A stretch of 64,000 nucleotides of DNA from Isoptericola jiangsuensis (GTDB taxonomy: Bacteria; Actinomycetota; Actinomycetes; Actinomycetales; Cellulomonadaceae). The notes under the pieces were generated by a model, which was not told the DNA's origin, ran no database searches, and saw nothing but the letters and a program-made list of their open reading frames with translations. Position 1 is the first letter of the stretch. Each line of letters begins with the position of its first letter. The stretch is taken from contig NZ_PDJJ01000001.1 of NCBI RefSeq assembly GCF_002563715.1, positions 3,286,001 through 3,350,000 on the forward strand, given 5' to 3'. The translations under genes were made by a program, and so were the position numbers. This document shows positions 3,730-51,652 of the stretch, piece after piece.

Positions 3730-4305
3730 ATGAGCACCCGCGCCCTGATCGTCGTCGACGTCCAGCCCACGTTCTGCGAGGGCGGCGAGCTGCCCGTCGA
3801 CGGCGGGAACCAGGTCGCCGCCGACGTCGCCGCGTACGCCGCCGCGCACCGGGGACGCTACGACCTCGTCGTCACCACGCAGGACTGGCACGTCGACCCC
3901 GGCGAGCACTTCAGCGACAACCCCGACTACGTCGACTCGTGGCCCGTGCACGGCGTCGCCGGGTCCCCGAACGCCGCCCTGCACCCCGCGCTGGCCGACC
4001 TCGCCGCCGACGTCGCCGTCCGCAAGGGCCAGTACGACCACGGCTACTCCGGGTTCGAGGGCGTCACGGACGACGACCGCACCCTGGAGGACGTCCTGCA
4101 CGCCGCCGGCATCGACGCCGTCGACGTCGTCGGCCTCGCCGAGTCCCACTGCGTGCGTCGCACCGCGCTCGACGCCGTCACCGCCGGGTTCGCCACCCGC
4201 GTTCTCACGGACCTCACCGCTCCCGTCTCCCCCGAGCTCGGCGAGCGGGCCCGCACGGAGCTCGCCGCCGCGGGCGTCACCCTCACCCCGTCGACCGCCC
4301 TCTGA
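3730..4305 (+). CDS. pncA: Isochorismatase-family hydrolase, probable nicotinamidase
   Basis: A 191-residue cysteine hydrolase of the isochorismatase superfamily. The family catalytic triad is visible: Asp10 in LIVVDVQ, Lys99 in VRKGQ and Cys141 in ESHCVRRTA. The TTQDWHVD and GEHF segments supply the metal-site Asp and His residues expected of nicotinamidases. The likely reaction is nicotinamide to nicotinate plus ammonia in NAD salvage; other amidases of the family cannot be excluded. The ATG at 3730 follows GGAGGC. The gene is monocistronic, and an array of 20-bp-spaced repeats begins about 20 nt after its stop. Confidence 0.82.
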
Positions 4306-4325: not shown

Positions 4326-4437
4326 GCGAGTCAGCGCGCCTCCCGGCGAGTCAGCGCACAGCTCCGCGACTCAGCGCACCTCCCAACGAGTCAGCGCACT
4401 CTCCCGCCAGTCGGCACACCTCCACGCGACTCAGCGC
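4326..4437 (+). repeat. 20-bp phased repeat array 1, six copies of GCGASTCAGCGC
   Basis: Copies of a 12-bp motif start at 4326, 4346, 4366, 4386, 4406 and 4426, exactly 20 bp apart. The best copies read GCGAGTCAGCGC or GCGACTCAGCGC; those at 4386 (ACGAGTCAGCGC) and 4406 (GCCAGTCGGCAC) diverge. The 8 bp between motifs are not conserved. The array occupies the space after pncA. The same motif with the same 20-bp period recurs at 37691, 39307, 39467, 39757 and 51267. Confidence 0.9.
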
Positions 4438-15860: not shown

Positions 15861-15880
15861 CGAACTCTCCCTTCGCGCTT

Positions 15881-15900
15881 CCCGTCACGGTCGTGACGGG
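15881..15900. promoter_or_regulatory. Palindromic operator candidate
   Basis: CCCGTCACG-GT-CGTGACGGG has 9-bp perfect arms around a 2-bp centre and lies 21-40 bp upstream of the CxxC protein start. The size and spacing suit a homodimeric repressor or activator. No matching regulator is adjacent. Confidence 0.5.
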
Positions 15901-16042
15901 CCGGTCTTCCTCCTGGGGCACCGTGCGCGGGGGGCGCGGTTGCCGGACCAGCACGCGGAGGGCGTGTCGCTGGTCGCTCGTGACCTGGGGAGAAATCTAG
16001 CGCACGGGGCCGACAGCGGCTCGTGCGGGCAGGCGCCCGGGC

Positions 16043-33468: not shown

Positions 33469-34719
33469 TCAGCCCCAGGGCGCAGGATCGGCGACGACGT
33501 CGCGCAGCACCTCGCGGGCGCCACCGGTGAGGGCGGCGAACTTGCCGCCGCGGGCGGCGCGGACGTCGGGCGCGGCGAAGGGTGCGGCGAGGACGCGCTC
33601 GGTGAGGCCGGCGTGGACGTCGGGGGCGAGCCACGGCAGGAGCTCGGTGTAGACGCCGCCGAGGACGATCGTGGACACCCCGGTGAGGTTGACGAAGTCG
33701 GCGAGCGCGGAGCCGAGGGCCCGGGCGGCACGTTCCACGGCGGCCCGCGCGGTACCGCCGCCGTCCTCGTCGTCGAGCCGGGCGAGGAGGTCCGCGAGCG
33801 GCGCGTCGGCCGGGAGCCCGGCGGCGCGCAGCACGGCCTCCTTGCCGGCGTACTGCTCCAGGCAGCCGCGGGCGCCGCACGTGCAGCGCGGTCCGGCGGG
33901 GTCGACGACGACGTGCCCGACCTCGCCGTTCCAGCCGCGCTCGGCGAGGAACAGCGCGCGGTCGACGACGATCGCGGCGCCGATGCCGACGTCGCCGGAC
34001 ACGTGGAGGAACGAGTCGGGGACGTCGCCGGCGAGCTCGGCGAGGGCGGCGAGCTTGGCCTCGTTGGCGACGCGGACCGGCAGGTCGCGCAGGCCGAGGA
34101 GGGGGACGGGGTCGAGGGAGGACCACCCGAGGTTGGGGGCGACCTCGAGCTCGCCGGTGCGGGCGTCGACGAGTCCAGGCAGGGCGAGTCGCGCCCCGGC
34201 GACGCGCATGCCGGCGGCCTCGACGTCCGCGACGGCGTCGGCGGCGAGCGCCCCGAGCCGACCGAGGGTGCGGGCGGGGTCGGCGTCGTGGAACGCGCCG
34301 CGCTCGACGTGCTCGGCGACGACCTCTCCGGCGAGGTCGAGGACCCGCACGCCGAGGTAGTCGACGTTGACCTCGAGGCCGAGGCCGACGACGGTGCGGG
34401 ACGCGGGCACGAGGGGCACGGCGGGTCGGCCGGCGCGCTGCGCGGGTGCGGGGGGCAGCTCGGCGACGAGGCGGGCGGCGACGAGCCGGTCCACGAGCGT
34501 GGAGACGGTGGCGCGGGTGAGCCCGGTGGCGGCGGCGACGTCGGCGCGGGACGGTGGGACGGTGTCGGGACGCGTGCCGGCGGCGGCTGCGGCGTCGTAG
34601 ACGGCGCGGGCGACGAGGCGCAGGTTGCGTTCGCGCAGGGTGTGCTGGCGCGAGGCCTCCCCGCCGGGGTCCGCGGGCGCGGCGGAGGCGCTGGGCGTCG
34701 TCGTCGGCTCGGCGGTCAC
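33469..34719 (-). CDS. xylR: ROK-family transcriptional regulator, XylR-like
   Basis: A 416-residue regulator. The N-terminal winged helix-turn-helix ([24 protein letters not shown], about residues 55-80) is followed by a ROK sugar-kinase fold with [41 protein letters not shown] and the zinc motif [23 protein letters not shown]. Divergent placement 96 bp from xylA indicates a xylose-responsive repressor of xylAB, as in other actinobacteria. The ATP-binding motif is not needed for the regulator role. An alanine-rich leader of about 25 residues precedes the HTH. Confidence 0.88.
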
Positions 34720-36091: not shown

Positions 36092-37576
36092 ATGCCCCTC
36101 GTGGCAGGCGTGGACACGTCCACGCAGTCCTGCAAGATCGTCGTCCGCGACGCCGCGACGGGCGCGCTCGTGCGCTCGGGTGCCGCGAAGCACCCGGACG
36201 GCACGGAGATCCACCCGGACCACTGGTGGACGGCGTTCGGCGAGGCGGCGCGCGCCGCGGGCGGCCTGGACGACGTCGCGGCGATCGCCGTCGGCGGGCA
36301 GCAGCACGGCCTGGTGGCGCTCGACGCCGAGGGCCGCGTCATCCGTGACGCCCTGCTGTGGAACGACACCCGCTCGGCCCCGGCGGCGGAGGACCTCATC
36401 CGCGAGCTCGGTGACGGCGACCGCACCGCGGGCGCGCAGGCCTGGGCCGACGCGACCGGCTCGGTGCTCGTGGCGTCCCTGACGATCACGAAGCTGCGCT
36501 GGCTGCGCGACGCGGAGCCGGAGAACGCCGCGCGCGTCGCCGCCGTCGCGCTCCCCCACGACTGGCTGACCTGGCGCATCGCGGGCTACGGCCCCGCCGA
36601 CTCCTCGCCCCTGGGCCCGGACCTCGACGCCCTCGTCACGGACCGGTCCGACGCGTCCGGCACCGGCTACTACGACGCGCAGGGCGCCGACGGCGCGGGC
36701 GAGTACCGCCCCGACCTGCTGCGCCTCGCCCTCGGCCGCGACGACGTCGTCCTGCCGCGCGTCCTGGGTCCGGCGGAGTCCGGCGGGACCGCGCACCCGT
36801 CGGTGGCAGGCGCGGACGTCGACGGCGGGGCCCTCCTCGGCCCGGGCGCCGGTGACAACGCCGGTGCGGCCCTCGGCCTCGGCATGGAGCCGGGCGACAT
36901 CGCGATCTCGCTGGGCACGTCCGGCGTCGTGTCGGCCGTGGCGCCGCGCCGCACCGCCGACGGCTCCGGCGCGATCAACGGGTTCGCCGACGCCACGGGC
37001 AACGCCCTCATGCTGGCCGTCACCCTCAACGCGGCCCGCGTGCTGGACGCGGCGCGCACCCTGCTCGACGTCGACGTCGACGAGCTGGCCCGCCTCGCCC
37101 TCGCCGCCCCGCCCGGGTCGGACGGCCTCGTGCTCGTCCCCTACCTGGAGGGCGAGCGCACCCCGAACCGCCCCGACGCGACCGGCACCCTGCACGGGAT
37201 CCGCCTGGCCACGTCGACGCGGGAGCACCTCGCCCGCGCCTACGTCGAGGGCATGCTCTGCGGTCTCGCGGACGGCCTGGACGCGCTGCGCGCCCTCGAC
37301 GTCCCCGTCCAGCGGGTCATGCTCATCGGCGGCGCGGCCCGGTCCGCCGCGGTGCAGGAGGTCGCGACGCAGGTGTTCGGCGTGCCGATCTCCGTGCCCG
37401 AACCCGGCGAGTACGTGGCCGACGGCGCCGCCCGCCAGGCCGCCTGGGTGCTCGCCGCCGCCACGACGCCCGGCGCCGACGCCCCGGCGTGGGCGGCGAC
37501 CGTCGACACGACGCTCGCCGCCGACCCGCGGCCCGTCGTCCGGGAGCAGTACGCCGCGGTCCGCGACCTCGTCTGA
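36092..37576 (+). CDS. xylB: Xylulokinase
   Basis: A 494-residue FGGY-family kinase that phosphorylates D-xylulose to xylulose 5-phosphate for the pentose phosphate pathway. The ATP-binding start [13 protein letters not shown], substrate loop [18 protein letters not shown] and the late [13 protein letters not shown] are family motifs. The central LGTSGVVSA and [13 protein letters not shown] are also typical. The ATG at 36092 follows TGGAGCG. It forms the xylAB operon with the upstream gene. Confidence 0.96.
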
Positions 37577-37690: not shown

Positions 37691-37782
37691 GCGACTCAGC
37701 GCAGGCCGGCGCGAGTCAGCGCAAGGCCCCGCGACTCAGCGCAGCCAGGCGCGAGTCAGCGCAGCTCCGCGGCCTCAGCACG
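37691..37782 (+). repeat. 20-bp phased repeat array 2, five copies of GCGASTCAGCGC
   Basis: Motif copies start at 37691, 37711, 37731, 37751 and 37771, exactly 20 bp apart; a weak sixth is at 37791. GCGAC and GCGAG versions alternate, and the fifth is degraded (GGCCTCAGCACG). The array fills much of the 331-bp gene-free stretch between xylB and the GH6 gene. Confidence 0.88.
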
Positions 37783-37907: not shown

Positions 37908-39284
37908 ATGCGGCAGGTACGACGACGAACCCGCTGGACGGCGCTGGCCGCCATGATGGCGCTGGGCGTGACCGGTACGGCCGGCGTGGTCGCGGCGACG
38001 ACCGCGACGGCGGCCGCCGGGTGCACGGTGGACTATCGGGTGACGTCGCAGTGGCAGGGCGGCTTCCAGGGCGACGTCGCGGTGACCAACCTCGGCGACG
38101 CGCTGGACGCGTGGGACCTCACCTGGACGACGGCGTCGGGCCAGCAGGTGACGCAGGCCTGGAACGCGGAGGTCACGCAGTCGGGCCGCACGGTGCAGGC
38201 CTCGGGTGTCGCGTGGAACGCCGCGCTCGGCGCGGACGTGACGACGAGCTTCGGCTTCATCGGCTCGTGGAGCGGCAGCAACCCGGTGCCGACGGACTTC
38301 GCGCTCGACGGCGTGCCCTGCACCGGCCAGGTGACCGGGCCGACGTCGTTGCCCACGCCGTCGGCCACCGCGACGCCGACGCCGACACCGACACCGTCGC
38401 CGGATCCCAGCGAGGAGCCCACCCCGGAGCCGACGCCGATGCCGTCCGGCGACTTCTACGTCGACCCCGGCACCCAGGCGTGGACGGCGTGGCAGGCCGC
38501 CGGCGGCACCGAGAGGGCGTTGCTGGAGAAGATCGCCCTCACCCCGCAGGCGTACTGGGTGGGCAACTGGAACGACGCCGCGACCGAGCGGGACGCCGTC
38601 GCCGACTACACGGGGCGCGCCGTCGCGGCGGGTGCCACGCCGGTCCTGGCCGTCTACGCGATCCCCGGCCGGGACTGTGGCAGCCACTCGGGCGGCGGCG
38701 TGGCCGAGAGCGAGTACGCCCGCTGGGTCGACGTCGTCGCCGACGGCATCCAGGGCGAGCCGACCGTCGTCCTCGAGCCCGACGCCCTCGCCCAGCTCGG
38801 TGACTGCAGCGGCCAGGGCGACCGGATCGGCTATCTGCGGTACGCCGCACGCGTCCTCACCGAGGCAGGTGGCCGCGTGTACGTCGACGCCGGCCACTCC
38901 GGGTGGCTCAGTGCGGCCGAGGCGGCGGACCGCCTCAACCAGGTCGGGTTCGAGCACGCCGTGGGGTTCGCCCTCAACACCTCCAACTACCGGCCGACCG
39001 CGGGCGAGCGCGCCTACGGCGAGCAGATCTCCGCGCTCACCGGCGGCGCCCGGTTCGTCATCGACACGTCCCGCAACGGCAACGGCTCCAACGGCGAGTG
39101 GTGCAACCCGCGCGGCCGCGCCCTCGGGGAGCGGCCCCGCGTCGTCGCGGAGGCGTCCGGTCTGGACGCCCTGCTGTGGGTGAAGCTGCCCGGTGAGTCG
39201 GACGGCTCCTGCAACGGCGGCCCGCCCGCCGGCCAGTGGTGGCAGGAGATCGCCCTGGAGATGGCTCGCAACGCCGCCTGGTAG
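37908..39284 (+). CDS. Secreted cellulase: CBM2 plus GH6 catalytic domain
   Basis: A 458-residue secreted cellulase. A signal peptide (RRRTRWTALAAMMALGVTGTAGVVAA...TAAA) is followed by a family 2 cellulose-binding module (about residues 37-135, CTVDYRVTSQWQGGFQGDV with closing VPC disulphide). A Pro-Thr linker (TPTPTPTPSPDPSEEPTPEP) leads to a GH6 domain of about 290 residues. The catalytic acid region is YAIPGRDCGSHSGGG, the second Asp is in VVLEPDALAQL, and YVDAGHSGW and LWVKLPGESDGSC are also conserved. The short GH6 form with open loops suggests an endoglucanase rather than a cellobiohydrolase. GGAG lies before the ATG. Repeats flank the gene on both sides. Confidence 0.95.
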   Translation: MRQVRRRTRWTALAAMMALGVTGTAGVVAATTATAAAGCTVDYRVTSQWQGGFQGDVAVTNLGDALDAWDLTWTTASGQQVTQAWNAEVTQSGRTVQASGVAWNAALGADVTTSFGFIGSWSGSNPVPTDFALDGVPCTGQVTGPTSLPTPSATATPTPTPTPSPDPSEEPTPEPTPMPSGDFYVDPGTQAWTAWQAAGGTERALLEKIALTPQAYWVGNWNDAATERDAVADYTGRAVAAGATPVLAVYAIPGRDCGSHSGGGVAESEYARWVDVVADGIQGEPTVVLEPDALAQLGDCSGQGDRIGYLRYAARVLTEAGGRVYVDAGHSGWLSAAEAADRLNQVGFEHAVGFALNTSNYRPTAGERAYGEQISALTGGARFVIDTSRNGNGSNGEWCNPRGRALGERPRVVAEASGLDALLWVKLPGESDGSCNGGPPAGQWWQEIALEMARNAAW

Positions 39285-39306
39285 CCGCGACCCGACGCAA
39301 CTTCCC

Positions 39307-39418
39307 GCGAGTCAGCGCTGTCGTCCGCGAGTCAGCGCTGTCGTCCGCGAGTCAGCGCTGTCGTCCGCGAGTCAGCGCTGTCGTCCGCGAGTCAGCGCGA
39401 GTTTCGTCGAGTCGGCGC
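39307..39418 (+). repeat. 20-bp phased repeat array 3a, six forward copies
   Basis: The 20-bp unit GCGAGTCAGCGCTGTCGTCC is repeated four times without change from 39307 to 39386. A fifth core is at 39387 and a degenerate sixth at 39407. The array starts 22 bp after the GH6 stop. Because four units are identical including the spacer, part of it arose by recent tandem duplication. Confidence 0.95.
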
Positions 39419-39466
39419 ACGGTCGCTCGCGCCAGCACGGGACGCGGCCCGCCGTCGCCTCACGAT

Positions 39467-39618
39467 GCGCTGAGTCGGCGTACCAAGCGCTGACCGAGCG
39501 GATCCTGCGCTGACTCGCGGACGACAGCGCTGAGGCAACGGGTCCTGCGCTGACTCGCGGGGACGTGCGCTGACTGACGCCATCGAGCGCTGACTCGACG
39601 ATGCCCGCGCTGACTCGG
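39467..39618 (-). repeat. 20-bp phased repeat array 3b, eight inverted copies
   Basis: The complement GCGCTGASTCG starts at 39467, 39487, 39507, 39527, 39547, 39567, 39587 and 39607, every 20 bp without drift. Spacer bases differ between copies, and three copies are partly degraded. Orientation is opposite to array 3a, so the two face each other across 39419-39466. Confidence 0.93.
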
Positions 39619-39647
39619 CTCGGCGTTCCGCGTTCCGCAACCCGGGA

Positions 39648-39744
39648 GGACGGCGCGGGGAGGCCGCGCGTCGTCGTCCTTCCCGAAGTGGAGGGCCCCC
39701 TGGGGCCCGTGAACGCGACGACGCGCGGCCTCCCCGCGCCGTCC
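39648..39744. repeat. Long cruciform element with conserved apical core (copy 2)
   Basis: A perfect 29-bp stem (39648-39676 with 39716-39744) encloses a 39-nt apical region. Positions 39682-39717 are identical to 8010-8045 of copy 1, while the stems share no evident sequence. It interrupts the inverted phased array (copies resume at 39757), which looks like insertion of the element into an existing array. Confidence 0.87.
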
Positions 39745-39756
39745 GGCACCACCGGT

Positions 39757-39828
39757 GCGCTGACTCGCGCCACGGAGCGCTGACTCGACGGAAGTTGCGC
39801 TGACTCGGCGGATCCTGCGCTGAGTCGC
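39757..39828 (-). repeat. 20-bp phased repeat array 3c, four inverted copies
   Basis: GCGCTGASTCG copies start at 39757, 39777, 39797 and 39817. They continue array 3b in the same orientation after the cruciform element. The last copy ends 20 bp before a LacI-type operator candidate and 44 bp before the pectinesterase start. Confidence 0.92.
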
Positions 39829-39847
39829 GGACGGGTTGGACGCCACC

Positions 39848-39860
39848 GGAAACCGCTTAC
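39848..39860. promoter_or_regulatory. LacI-type operator candidate (site A) before the pectinesterase gene
   Basis: GGAAACCGCTTAC fits GGNAACCGSTTNCC, a form shared with sites at 49106, 49149 and 59371. It lies 12 bp before the start codon, where a bound repressor would block initiation. Confidence 0.6.
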
Positions 39861-39872
39861 TAGCCTCGTGTC

Positions 39873-41504
39873 ATGTCCCGCACCGTGCACGTCGGCGACG
39901 ACGCCGACCTCGTCCCCACCCTGGGCCTCGCGCTGGCCGACCCCGACGTCACCGAGATCGTGGTCCATCCCGGCGTCTATCCCGAGCAGGTGGTGGTCGC
40001 GCCGCGGCGCGCCCCGCTGCTGATCAGGTCCCTCACGGGCGACCCGGCCGACGTCGTGGTGACGAGCGACCTGCGCCAGGGGGACCTCGGCGCGACGGGG
40101 ATGCCGGTGATCCAGGAGTGCGCGACGTTCACGGTGGACGCCGACGACGTGACGCTGCGGCACCTGACGATCCGCAACACGTACGACAAGCGGCGGGGCA
40201 CGGACGTCCCGGACCAGCAGGCGCTGGCGTTGCGCACGCGGGGCACGCGCGTGGTGGTGGAGGGCTGCCGGCTGCTGGGCCGTCAGGACACGCTGCTGCT
40301 GGACTCGCGGTCGTTCGCGCAGGTCAGCCACGTCCTGGTGCGTGACTGCCTGGTGGTCGGTGACGTGGACTTCGTGTACGGGCGGGCGACGGCGCTGATC
40401 GAGGGCGGGGAGGTCCGTTCGTGCGGTGCGGGGTACGTGGCGGCGCCGAGCACGGTGCGGGAGAACCCGCGCGGGTTCCTGTTCCGCGGGGTCACGTTCA
40501 CGGCGGACGACGACGTCGCGCCGGGTTCGGTGCACCTGGCGCGTCCGTGGCACCCGGGCGGGCGTCCGGAGGCGGACGGGCAGGCCCTGTTCGTGGACTG
40601 CACGGTGGGTCCGCACGTCGCGGCGGAGCGGTGGGCCGACATGGGCGGCTACTCGTGGCGGACGGACGCGCGGTTCGGCGAGGCGGGCACGACGCTCGCC
40701 CCGGGTGCGGTGGCGGCGTCGGCGGAGCACGCCCTGCCGTTGCCGGACGGCGTCGACCCCGACGCGCACCTGGCCGGCTGGTCCCCTGCGCCCGCGCCGC
40801 GGGGGCGCCTGCACGTGCTGTCCGACTCGACGGCGAGCGACTACGCGCCGGACCGGGCGCCGCGCACGGGCTGGGCGCAGGTCCTGGCGGGCCTGAGCGG
40901 CCGGGACGTGGCGAACCACGCGGTGTCGGGGATGAGCACGACGAGCCTCGTCGCGAGCGGCCACCTCGACGCCGCGCTGGAGCAGGTGGCGCCGGGCGAC
41001 GTCGTGCTGGTCGGGTTCGGCCACAACGACGCGAAGGACGACGAGCGGCACGCGGACCCGCACCGCGCCTACCCCGCGCACCTGCGCCGGGTGCTCGCGG
41101 GTGCTCGTGCCCGCGGGGCGACGCCGGTGCTGGTGACGTCGGTGGAGCGGCGCCGGTTCGAGGGCGACCGCGCGGTGTCGACGCACGGCGCGTACCCGCA
41201 GGTGGTGCGTCGCCTCGCGGAGGCCGAGGGCGTCGCGCTGGTCGACCTGACCCTCGCCACCCGACGGCTCTGGCAGTCCCAGGGCGTCGAGGGCAGCAAG
41301 GCCTCGTTCCTATGGCTGGAACCTAGCGAGTGGCCCGGCTACCCCGACGGCGAGCGGGACGACACGCACCTGTCGCTCGACGGCGCCCGCGCGGTGGCGG
41401 GGATCGTCGTCGCAGCGCTGCGCGACCTGGGTGTCCTCGATGCCGCCGAGGCGGCGGCGTCGGACGACGTGGCACCGGTCGCGGCGGCGGGCGCCGTCCG
41501 ATGA
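39873..41504 (+). CDS. Pectinesterase (CE8) fused to SGNH/CE12-type acetylesterase
   Basis: A 543-residue two-domain esterase. Residues 1-300 are a CE8 beta-helix with VIQECATFTVDADDVTLRHLTIRN-type rungs, GRQDTLLL, GDVDFVYGRA (catalytic Asp) and LARPWHPGG, so it removes methyl esters from homogalacturonan. Residues 305-510 are an SGNH hydrolase of the rhamnogalacturonan-acetylesterase type: LSDSTASDY (nucleophile Ser), GFGHNDAKDD and the final DDTHLSLDGA with catalytic Asp and His. There is no signal peptide, so it should act on imported oligomers. The stop overlaps the next gene by 4 bp. A LacI-type site lies just upstream. Confidence 0.93.
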   Translation: MSRTVHVGDDADLVPTLGLALADPDVTEIVVHPGVYPEQVVVAPRRAPLLIRSLTGDPADVVVTSDLRQGDLGATGMPVIQECATFTVDADDVTLRHLTIRNTYDKRRGTDVPDQQALALRTRGTRVVVEGCRLLGRQDTLLLDSRSFAQVSHVLVRDCLVVGDVDFVYGRATALIEGGEVRSCGAGYVAAPSTVRENPRGFLFRGVTFTADDDVAPGSVHLARPWHPGGRPEADGQALFVDCTVGPHVAAERWADMGGYSWRTDARFGEAGTTLAPGAVAASAEHALPLPDGVDPDAHLAGWSPAPAPRGRLHVLSDSTASDYAPDRAPRTGWAQVLAGLSGRDVANHAVSGMSTTSLVASGHLDAALEQVAPGDVVLVGFGHNDAKDDERHADPHRAYPAHLRRVLAGARARGATPVLVTSVERRRFEGDRAVSTHGAYPQVVRRLAEAEGVALVDLTLATRRLWQSQGVEGSKASFLWLEPSEWPGYPDGERDDTHLSLDGARAVAGIVVAALRDLGVLDAAEAAASDDVAPVAAAGAVR

Positions 41505-50668: not shown

Positions 50669-51259
50669 ATGCGATCCCGCCCCCTGGTGACGACCGGCGC
50701 CCTGGCCGCGACGGTGAGCGTCCTCATCGTGCTGCTGTACGCGGGCCGGATCGGGATGCACCTGGACGATCCCGGGGTGCTCGCCCTCGTGGGGGTGCTG
50801 GTCCTGGTGGCGGCGGTGGGCGTGCTGGCGTGGTGCGGGGTGGTGTCCGTGCGGGTGCGCTCCCAGGTGCGGCGCGTGGACCGGCACCGGCCGGGCGCCC
50901 CGCTGGTGGTGGGCCGCCCGACGACGGCGCTCACCGCGCAGGCACGGGCCCTGCGGGCGGGCACGCGCGGCCTGCCGCCGGACGCGGCGGACCGGGAGCA
51001 CGTGGTCTACGCGTTCCTCCCGGACCGGGTGGAGCTGTGGGTGCGCGGCGACGACGCGCCCCGCTGGTGGGTGACGCTCCCCGCGGACGTGTCCGCCGGG
51101 ACGACGGGGGCAGGCCGGTCCGGTCTCGACGCCCTCACGGTGCGCGACGGCGCCGCGACGCTCGAGCTCGTCCCGACGTCCGACGACGCCCGGGCGTGGC
51201 CGTCCCGCGCGCACCGCACGGCCGCGGTCGAACGGACCCGGGCCCTCCTCGCACGCTGA
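50669..51259 (+). CDS. Small membrane protein of unknown function
   Basis: A 196-residue protein with two N-terminal helices ([21 protein letters not shown] and [24 protein letters not shown]). A soluble part follows with several beta-strands ([41 protein letters not shown]) reminiscent of a PH-like fold. I do not recognise the family. It is divergent from thyA, and a two-copy repeat array follows its stop. Confidence 0.65.
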
Positions 51260-51266
51260 CCCGTCC

Positions 51267-51298
51267 GCGAGTCAGCACAGCGCGCGGCGAGTCAGCGC
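51267..51298 (+). repeat. 20-bp phased repeat array 4, two copies
   Basis: GCGAGTCAGCAC at 51267 and GCGAGTCAGCGC at 51287 are exactly 20 bp apart, starting 7 bp after a plus-strand stop codon. Motif, period and placement match the larger arrays. Confidence 0.8.
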
Positions 51299-51331: not shown

Positions 51332-51652
51332 TCAGTGCTCGGCGTCGTCGCCCGCACCGTGGCGGGGCGGGTGGTCGAGCTCGACGGGCTCGGCGTCGTC
51401 GTCGGGTGCACCACCGAAGTGGGCGCCGCTCTCGACGGGTGCGTGCTCGCCGCTCCCCCGCTCGTCGTCGCCGTCGTCGGCGGACGCGGACGCGGACGCG
51501 GGATGTTCGACGGCCGCGAGGTCGGGCCCGGTGGCCCAGTCGCGCTCGGGGTGGACGGTGTCGCCCTCGGGCCCAGGCGCGGGCGTGGCGGCGTCGAGCT
51601 CCTCGGGCAGGATCTTGCCGGAGCCGAAGTCGGACTTGTCCCGTGCGGTCAT
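51332..51652 (-). CDS. Acidic, probably disordered protein
   Basis: A 106-residue protein rich in Asp, Glu, Ala, Gly and Pro with no membrane helix or signal. The front DKSDFGSGKILPEELD is followed by low-complexity segments (HPASASASADDGDDERGSG). No family is recognised. GC skew at third codon positions and the isolated location between two transcribed genes support coding, but only moderately. It is divergent from the OsmC-family gene. Confidence 0.5.
   Translation of the reverse strand: MTARDKSDFGSGKILPEELDAATPAPGPEGDTVHPERDWATGPDLAAVEHPASASASADDGDDERGSGEHAPVESGAHFGGAPDDDAEPVELDHPPRHGAGDDAEH

Follow-up and report, generated by a model that had tools for sequence, protein, structure and literature searches.

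In CRISPR loci, identical repeats of considerable length alternate with unique spacers, each about 30 bp. Iterons and the ParR/parC repeats are direct repeats spaced by approximately two helical turns, which bind their protein cooperatively and serve one origin or centromere. DNA uptake sequences are scattered singly and can also form inverted pairs at gene ends, and the REP/BIME repeats are species-specific. The uptake sequences of Neisseriaceae form “dialects” and reach thousands of copies per genome (PMC3630211). REP/BIME elements, considered together with RAYT, are described in three reports as extragenic, arranged in inverted pairs and of high copy number (PMC2817692, PMC8266576, PMC3733652). 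In Beggiatoaceae, the 7-bp unit TAACTGA forms 169 sets of intergenic direct repeats, mostly just upstream of start codons, which are regarded as candidate sites of a binding factor (PMC4679880). The arrays of Isoptericola jiangsuensis analysed here resemble uptake sequences in their dialects, REPs in their placement and iterons in their geometry. No tested kind combines these three, and the function of the arrays is putative. No description of the family was found among the open-access papers searched, and the matches listed for the letters of the word were unrelated by title.

The window, i.e., the whole 64-kb stretch of DNA analysed, represents positions 3286001–3350000 of the 4,041,252-base genome (G000). 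It harbours 18 exact copies of GCGASTCAGCGC (0.16 expected from 100 shuffles), all located in four places. With up to two mismatches, 56 copies occur versus 67 expected, 27 of them in the four runs; this loose total does not exceed the shuffle level, so the evidence consists of the exact copies and their register. A chain search with 20-bp steps gave 33 units in the four places, degenerate ones counted (Table 1), close to the approximately 31 occurrences reported in the initial annotation. Its statement that the starts differ by exactly 20 bp holds for the step in each run; however, its third place comprises several runs on both strands. The opposed halves of this array, as well as the other words of the congeners, had been missed. 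The neighbours were identified by family models run on seven genes beside the window arrays.

Table 1. Arrays of the window and the genes adjoining them (window positions)
Feature	Position	Strand	Description
Array 1	4326–4437	+	6 units at 20 bp including one degenerate
Array 1 neighbour, isochorismatase-fold gene	3730–4305	+	array starts 20 bp past stop
Array 2	37691–37762	+	4 units at 20 bp
Array 2 neighbour, FGGY sugar-kinase gene	36092–37576	+	array 114 bp past stop
Array 3, left half	39287–39438	+	8 units at 20 bp including degenerate; exact copies 39307–39398
Array 3 left-half neighbour, GH6 cellulase with CBM2	37908–39284	+	array 2 bp past stop
Array 3, opposed half	39447–39618	-	9 units at 20 bp including degenerate; faces left half
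Array 3, palindrome	about 39640–39757		100 bp, between the two minus-strand runs
Array 3, distal run	39757–39828	-	4 units at 20 bp
Array 3 distal-run neighbour, pectinesterase/GDSL gene	39873–41504	+	starts 44 bp past run
Array 4	51267–51298	+	2 units at 20 bp
Array 4 neighbour	50669–51259	+	array 7 bp past stop; convergent pair with the next gene
Array 4 neighbour, predicted	51332–51652	-	convergent pair with the preceding gene

The distal run of array 3 is shifted by 10 bp in the 20-bp phase relative to the other runs. The palindrome of this array is near-perfect, with an RNA fold of -95 kcal/mol (z -8.3). It has 41 matches in its own genome (its own reverse-strand match counted), several of which adjoin arrays, and at least partial matches in 18 of 18 genus genomes, from 2 to 43 in each. 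It corresponds to no Rfam family and may be either a terminator that recurs in the genome or a mobile element of small size. Rfam gave three matches over the window, none at the arrays; a SAM-IV riboswitch is located at 15870–15985 on the minus strand (63 bits). Long frames with RVSA/RESA/ASQR repeats pass through array 3 at 39372–41186 (minus) and 39193–39513 (plus). The arrays explain such repeat-rich spurious reading frames, which in array 3 could be mis-annotated as proteins.

In the whole G000 genome, GASTCAGCGC occurs 512 times (252 forward and 260 reverse). In the 1.264 Mb read, which include the window and represent 31% of the genome, 176 copies were found, all but two within or beside tandem arrays, and the array-bearing intergenic regions number 33, which scales up to about 100 arrays in the whole genome. 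The 159 exact copies of CGASTCAGCGC in this part form 33 clusters (gaps up to 500 bp). In one of these, the single exact copy has a neighbour with one mismatch at 20 bp. Thus, the motif is not common without the 20-bp period, a point on which the initial annotation had made the whole family depend: 158 of the 159 copies cluster with another exact one. Copies on the same strand and no more than 130 bp apart are spaced by multiples of 20 bp, except for one 10-bp stretch and one 19-bp step. This stretch (L032, positions 33639–33730 of the genome) consists of a 10-bp unit, GCGACTCAGC, repeated head to tail, as if half the usual step, one helical turn, fits too. Avoidance of the own word in genes was not detected beyond codon use, the word pieces occurring in coding DNA at about the maximal-order Markov expectation. 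A 12-bp word with an 8-bp spacer, found in 33 regions of 1.264 Mb, does not represent a CRISPR; here, both size and locus number agree with the view of the initial annotation.

The chain search in G000 revealed 49 chains with 262 units and the consensus GCGASTCAGCGC-AGGWYCCC, although by admitting units with at least 8 of 12 word letters it flatters the word; two chains (4 units) inside genes were left out later. We therefore rely on a threshold-free comparison of each 20-bp slot that has an exact word of the same run on either side. In 73 interior slots of G000, the word matches the consensus at 96% while the commonest spacer letters reach 59%; in 48 slots of the congener G141, the values are 99% and 50%. 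The steps between relaxed words in G000 include 104 of 20 bp, one of 19, four of 10, one of 30 and one of 38, with 15 of 40 and three of 60 coming from skipped units. In G141, there are 97 steps of 20 bp, three of 19, two of 21, one of 13, one of 23 and three of 40. Mismatches between neighbouring spacers amount to 826 in 211 pairs (G000) and 438 in 126 pairs (G141). Adjacent spacers of a chain are identical at 51% of positions versus 39.5% in random pairs for G000, and at 56% versus 35% for G141. The lack of spacer conservation noticed in the initial annotation is hence true of adjacent spacers, which differ widely, but a weak genome-wide spacer consensus, AGGWYCCC, does exist. The usual share of indels among mutations is the yardstick for the low count of spacer length changes. 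Many substitutions with few length changes point to selection on spacing, if the spacers drift by mutation after duplication. The proposal of the initial annotation that the motif is read from one side of the helix once per two turns is favoured by the step staying at 20 bp although almost half of the bases differ between neighbouring spacers, and it also fits a word that is kept better than its spacer.

Placement was counted using genes from our own codon-usage predictor, not a standard annotation. Arrays overlapping predicted genes by at least 60% were dropped, which removed 2 of the 49 chains of G000 and 6 of the 47 chains of G141. In G000, 18 of 33 array regions occupy convergent gaps compared to 73 of 507 array-free gaps longer than 60 bp (p 3e-7), while divergent gaps account for 3 of 33 versus 165 of 507 (p 0.003). 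G141, of which 400 kb were covered, has 9 of 24 array regions in convergent gaps versus 22 of 160 (p 0.008); for divergent gaps (4 of 24 versus 50 of 160) the difference is not significant. The arrays favour gene 3′ ends, convergent pairs above all. Genes next to them resemble enolase, citrate synthase and ClpC (names given by eye).

The combination of a kept word, a drifting spacer of fixed length and partly shared sites favours protein reading from one face. As the best explanation, to which we give somewhat less than an even chance, we suggest that the arrays are cooperative binding sites of a candidate sequence-specific protein, forming boundaries at gene ends, with the reader and the word co-evolving. 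Each species would possess one such DNA-binding protein, with the arrays as its tandem sites. The putative reader would recognise a 9–12 bp word in the frame GCGAG-NY-AG-NNN every 20 bp; this is close to two helical turns, and neighbouring molecules would thus lie on one face and could stack. Filled arrays, often with opposed halves, would mark the 3′ ends of genes, mainly those of convergent pairs, and each may act as a boundary which stops or insulates transcription. Since ordinary terminator-like hairpins stand beside many arrays, before or after them (judged by eye), the arrays are probably not needed for termination as such, and it is a boundary or “roadblock” role that we propose.

The same putative reader may instead be involved in chromosome folding, anchoring or segregation. 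This role, which we consider unlikely, would suit the spread of arrays over the chromosome parts read and a cooperative geometry like that of the partition-site repeats bound by ParR. However, the total counts of the word lack strand bias, no dominant site stood out in the part of the genome that was read (31%), and the placement tracks gene ends. As direct repeats whose step of 20 bp approximates two helical turns, the arrays are indeed similar to iterons and ParR centromeres, but these are single loci by rep or par genes, whereas the arrays occupy 33 regions over 31% of the chromosome, partly as opposed halves (neighbours judged by eye). In detail, therefore, the iteron likeness drawn in the initial annotation does not stand: the set is genome-wide and located at gene ends, not at a single origin. 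The TAACTGA repeats differ from the 12-bp word with its drifting 8-bp spacer, its position at 3′ ends and its dialects.

No fixed phase was found between the opposed halves in 1.264 Mb of G000, a point against the boundary explanation. Back-to-back halves joined by palindromes, e.g., GGATCCTGCGCTGACTCGCGAGTCAGCGCAGGATCC, are located at positions 798626–798767, 374510–374751 and 566449–566590 of the genome; such junctions are a possible sign of inverted template switching. The copying mechanism offered as an alternative in the initial annotation stands as the main rival in the form of a selfish or neutral minisatellite, although we think it rather unlikely. According to this scenario, slippage and inverted template switching multiply the units, ectopic gene conversion spreads and homogenises them, and they survive mostly at 3′ ends since they are harmful to promoters and genes. 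The palindromic junctions agree with it, as do the arrays of near-identical copies which stand beside diverged ones; where spacers are near-identical, recent duplication likewise preserves the word and the step. The spacer preferences, which differ between G000 and G116 among the places listed, and the absence of arrays from several branches of the genus also speak for it. That the arrays are mutationally lively is evident from slippage, from palindromic junctions and from their encroachment on genes. Nevertheless, if no reader existed, one would expect equal drift of word and spacer and a period broken by indels, and neither is seen. New waves should also land at new sites, yet the sites are shared across dialects in the one pair of genomes tested.

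The encroachment concerns arrays which enter gene ends, where the word carries the stop codon: in the forward orientation in 11 of 12 cases in G141 (GGTAG giving TAG) and in the reverse in 9 of 9 cases in G000 (CTGACTCG giving TGA). Arrays supplying stop codons are in line with the minisatellite scenario, but the uniform orientation (20 of 21) follows largely from the gene-calling procedure. Relative to the gene, the word is oriented in both ways in G000 (25 forward, 23 reverse), which speaks against the boundary explanation, and in gene sense at 25 of 29 gene ends in G141. Opposed neighbours face inward in 12 of 12 cases in G141 and are divided 5 to 5 in G000. In the fetched loci, 15 of 15 opposed pairs are inward if touching or overlapping halves are left out; since two pairs in G116 (L092, L094) are outward, we give this count no weight.

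The gene-sense orientation in G141, the location of arrays directly past stop codons and the folding of two window arrays, which surpasses that of most of their shuffles (z -3.0 and -2.6), would be expected from an RNA element of 3′ UTRs, i.e., a terminator, a stabiliser or a protein target in mRNA. We nevertheless hold this improbable. For arrays of at least 4 units (up to 260 nt), the mean fold z is -1.9 in G000 (32 arrays) and -0.5 in G141 (26 arrays) versus -1.5 in 40 array-free intergenic stretches. Moreover, the spacers of opposed halves (touching or overlapping halves left out) are on average no more alike than the background, 0.35 versus 0.395 in 6 pairs and 0.33 versus 0.35 in 11, although single units are identical in some pairs, and the orientation in G000 is mixed.

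Mobilisation of REP/BIME elements by a RAYT (Y1) transposase could account for extragenic location, inverted pairs, high copy number in many clusters and for GTAG inside most words listed. These likenesses notwithstanding, this origin is hardly credible: Y1_Tnp (PF01797, E 0.001 or better) was found in 0 of 18 genus genomes and in 5 of 14 known genomes used as a control, E. coli included. The arrays have a strict 20-bp period, and no palindromic unit was seen in them. They fold no more than other intergenic DNA, with z below -3 in 7 of 32 (G000) and 2 of 26 (G141) whole arrays versus 8 of 40 controls.

To describe the family more widely, we used a skeleton of three CGAGNYAG units at 20 bp with one mismatch allowed. 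In the genus set (18 genomes of Isoptericola including Krasilnikoviella, with Krasilnikoviella flava among them), 13 genomes have from 35 to 265 matches, G145 has 5 and four genomes have none, so the function of the arrays, if any, is dispensable. Within one species, I. halotolerans, strain CG 23 bears arrays while KCTC 19046 has no match; I. luteus, I. cucumis and sp. BMS4 are likewise array-free although their neighbours bear arrays. The words of the congeners differ: GCGASTCAGCGC, SCGAGGTAGCGC, GCGAGGTAGGCAA, GCGRGTCAGGAC and others. The letters after AG vary even between arrays of one genome (e.g., G137, G084), and this part of the dialect is therefore soft.

One dialect per species is what makes uptake sequences worth considering. 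Like those of Neisseriaceae (PMC3630211), the Isoptericola words are short, genome-wide, of one variant per species and with a constant core plus variable positions. Unlike them, however, the 12-mer stands in 20-bp tandem arrays, almost never alone (uptake sequences are expected as many solitary copies, also inside genes, while only 2 of 176 GASTCAGCGC in 1.264 Mb are outside arrays), and has approximately 500 copies instead of thousands. This explanation is thus very improbable.

Within the family, the skeleton was found in 27 of 221 genomes and 6 of 25 genera; outside the genus, G090 has 159 matches (the reversed-pattern control also gives 54 there), G011 has 20 and eleven genomes have from 1 to 8. 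A class-wide search of 394 genomes (two of the genus) detected it only in G000 and in two of the 392 genomes sampled outside the family, where it occupies a single place per genome and the spacers are almost identical. The own word was matched in 21 of 396 genomes of the order, with one or two places each outside G000 and G094. In viral contigs, no match to the own word was found, and the skeleton matched five (L298–L302), none with drifting spacers: L298 and L299 carry identical sequence, L300 has near-identical 20-bp units, while L301 and L302 (54–55% G+C) have 10-bp head-to-tail repeats containing CGAGGTAG, the core of the GT dialect at half step, which are perhaps chance simple repeats. 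The skeleton was not found in phages, and plasmids gave one 77-bp match, in a haloarchaeon. Arrays of at least three units were present at 16 of 20 loci fetched mostly from genomes with few arrays (one from the array-rich G090, two from the genus), and no recurring reader gene was noticed by eye beside the arrays of these loci.

In another genus (g7, taken to be Promicromonospora), TGTCAGAC occurs in pairs mostly 19 bp apart among the places listed, and repeatedly as two mirrored pairs, approximately 53 bp apart, whose spacers are equal or nearly so. Matches number 31 in G105 and 7 in G077, and the word is also present in the Promicromonospora loci L212, L217 and L220. These pairs resemble hairpins of considerable length at the ends of genes, in which they differ from the Isoptericola arrays; they may be related to the latter or represent something separate. 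At the enolase 3′ end of Myceligenerans indicum (L223), each arm of a long hairpin contains units of approximately 19 bp (GTGTGGTCGGTC).

The enolase 3′ flank, inspected by eye in 17 of the 18 genus genomes, bears at least three units at 20 bp in eight: of the GTCAGCGC type in G000 and G116, GTCAGGAC in G094, and the GGTAG types in G149, G110, G141, G156 and G042. Single units are present in G137 and G145, and in the remainder the flank either lacks units or has inverted repeats of another kind. Among 15 readable genomes, arrays were found at the clpC 3′ end only in G000 and G058, with two degenerate units in G116, which means that many sites are unshared.

Site sharing was studied in one genome pair, G000 and G141, pooled over gap types and lengths. 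The sampled parts gave 174 reciprocal best pairs (mean identity 71%), with 76 comparable 3′ ends having a gap of at least 30 bp in both genomes. Arrays occur in both genomes at 5 ends, in G000 only at 1, in G141 only at 7 and in neither at 63 (p 2.4e-4); hence, 5 of 6 array sites of G000 are also arrayed in G141 versus 7 of 70 otherwise. When regions counted from both flanks are merged by hand (5 to 4, 7 to 6, 63 to 62, the last left at 62 without further merging), the numbers become 4, 1, 6 and 62 (p 9e-4), or 4 of 5 versus 6 of 68. The words of these genomes differ in the central dinucleotide (TC in G000, GT in G141), so replacement of the word has left part of the sites in place.

A tree was built from enolase, ClpC and an FtsB-like neighbour for 16 genomes with more than 700 residues (G137 and G156 dropped). 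It places G094 (TC) as a sister of G058 (GT) with support of 100, and G000 and G116 (TC) in another clade, the clade of the own genome, where four supports are 40–57. Since the TC dialect appears on two separate branches, the dinucleotide changed at least twice. As judged from this tree, the arrays were lost or gained several times in the genus. Under the boundary explanation, a shift in the specificity of the reader would change the word in all arrays, while many sites would stay.

With yet more reserve, we propose that the arrays might constitute a chromosome-wide protein–DNA code of an undescribed kind: about 100 cooperative stations at gene ends with a constant step of two turns, whose word has been switched genome-wide at least twice in the genus while many sites were kept, a bacterial counterpart of a reader racing its own sites. 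If a protein does read the arrays, it would represent a new factor of DNA organisation or of boundaries, its specificity would be traceable across species from DNA alone, the co-change of a DNA-binding protein with hundreds of its sites would become testable, and the natural gains, losses and word swaps would serve as experiments. Even if the arrays are a selfish minisatellite, they would represent homogenisation across many dispersed bacterial loci.
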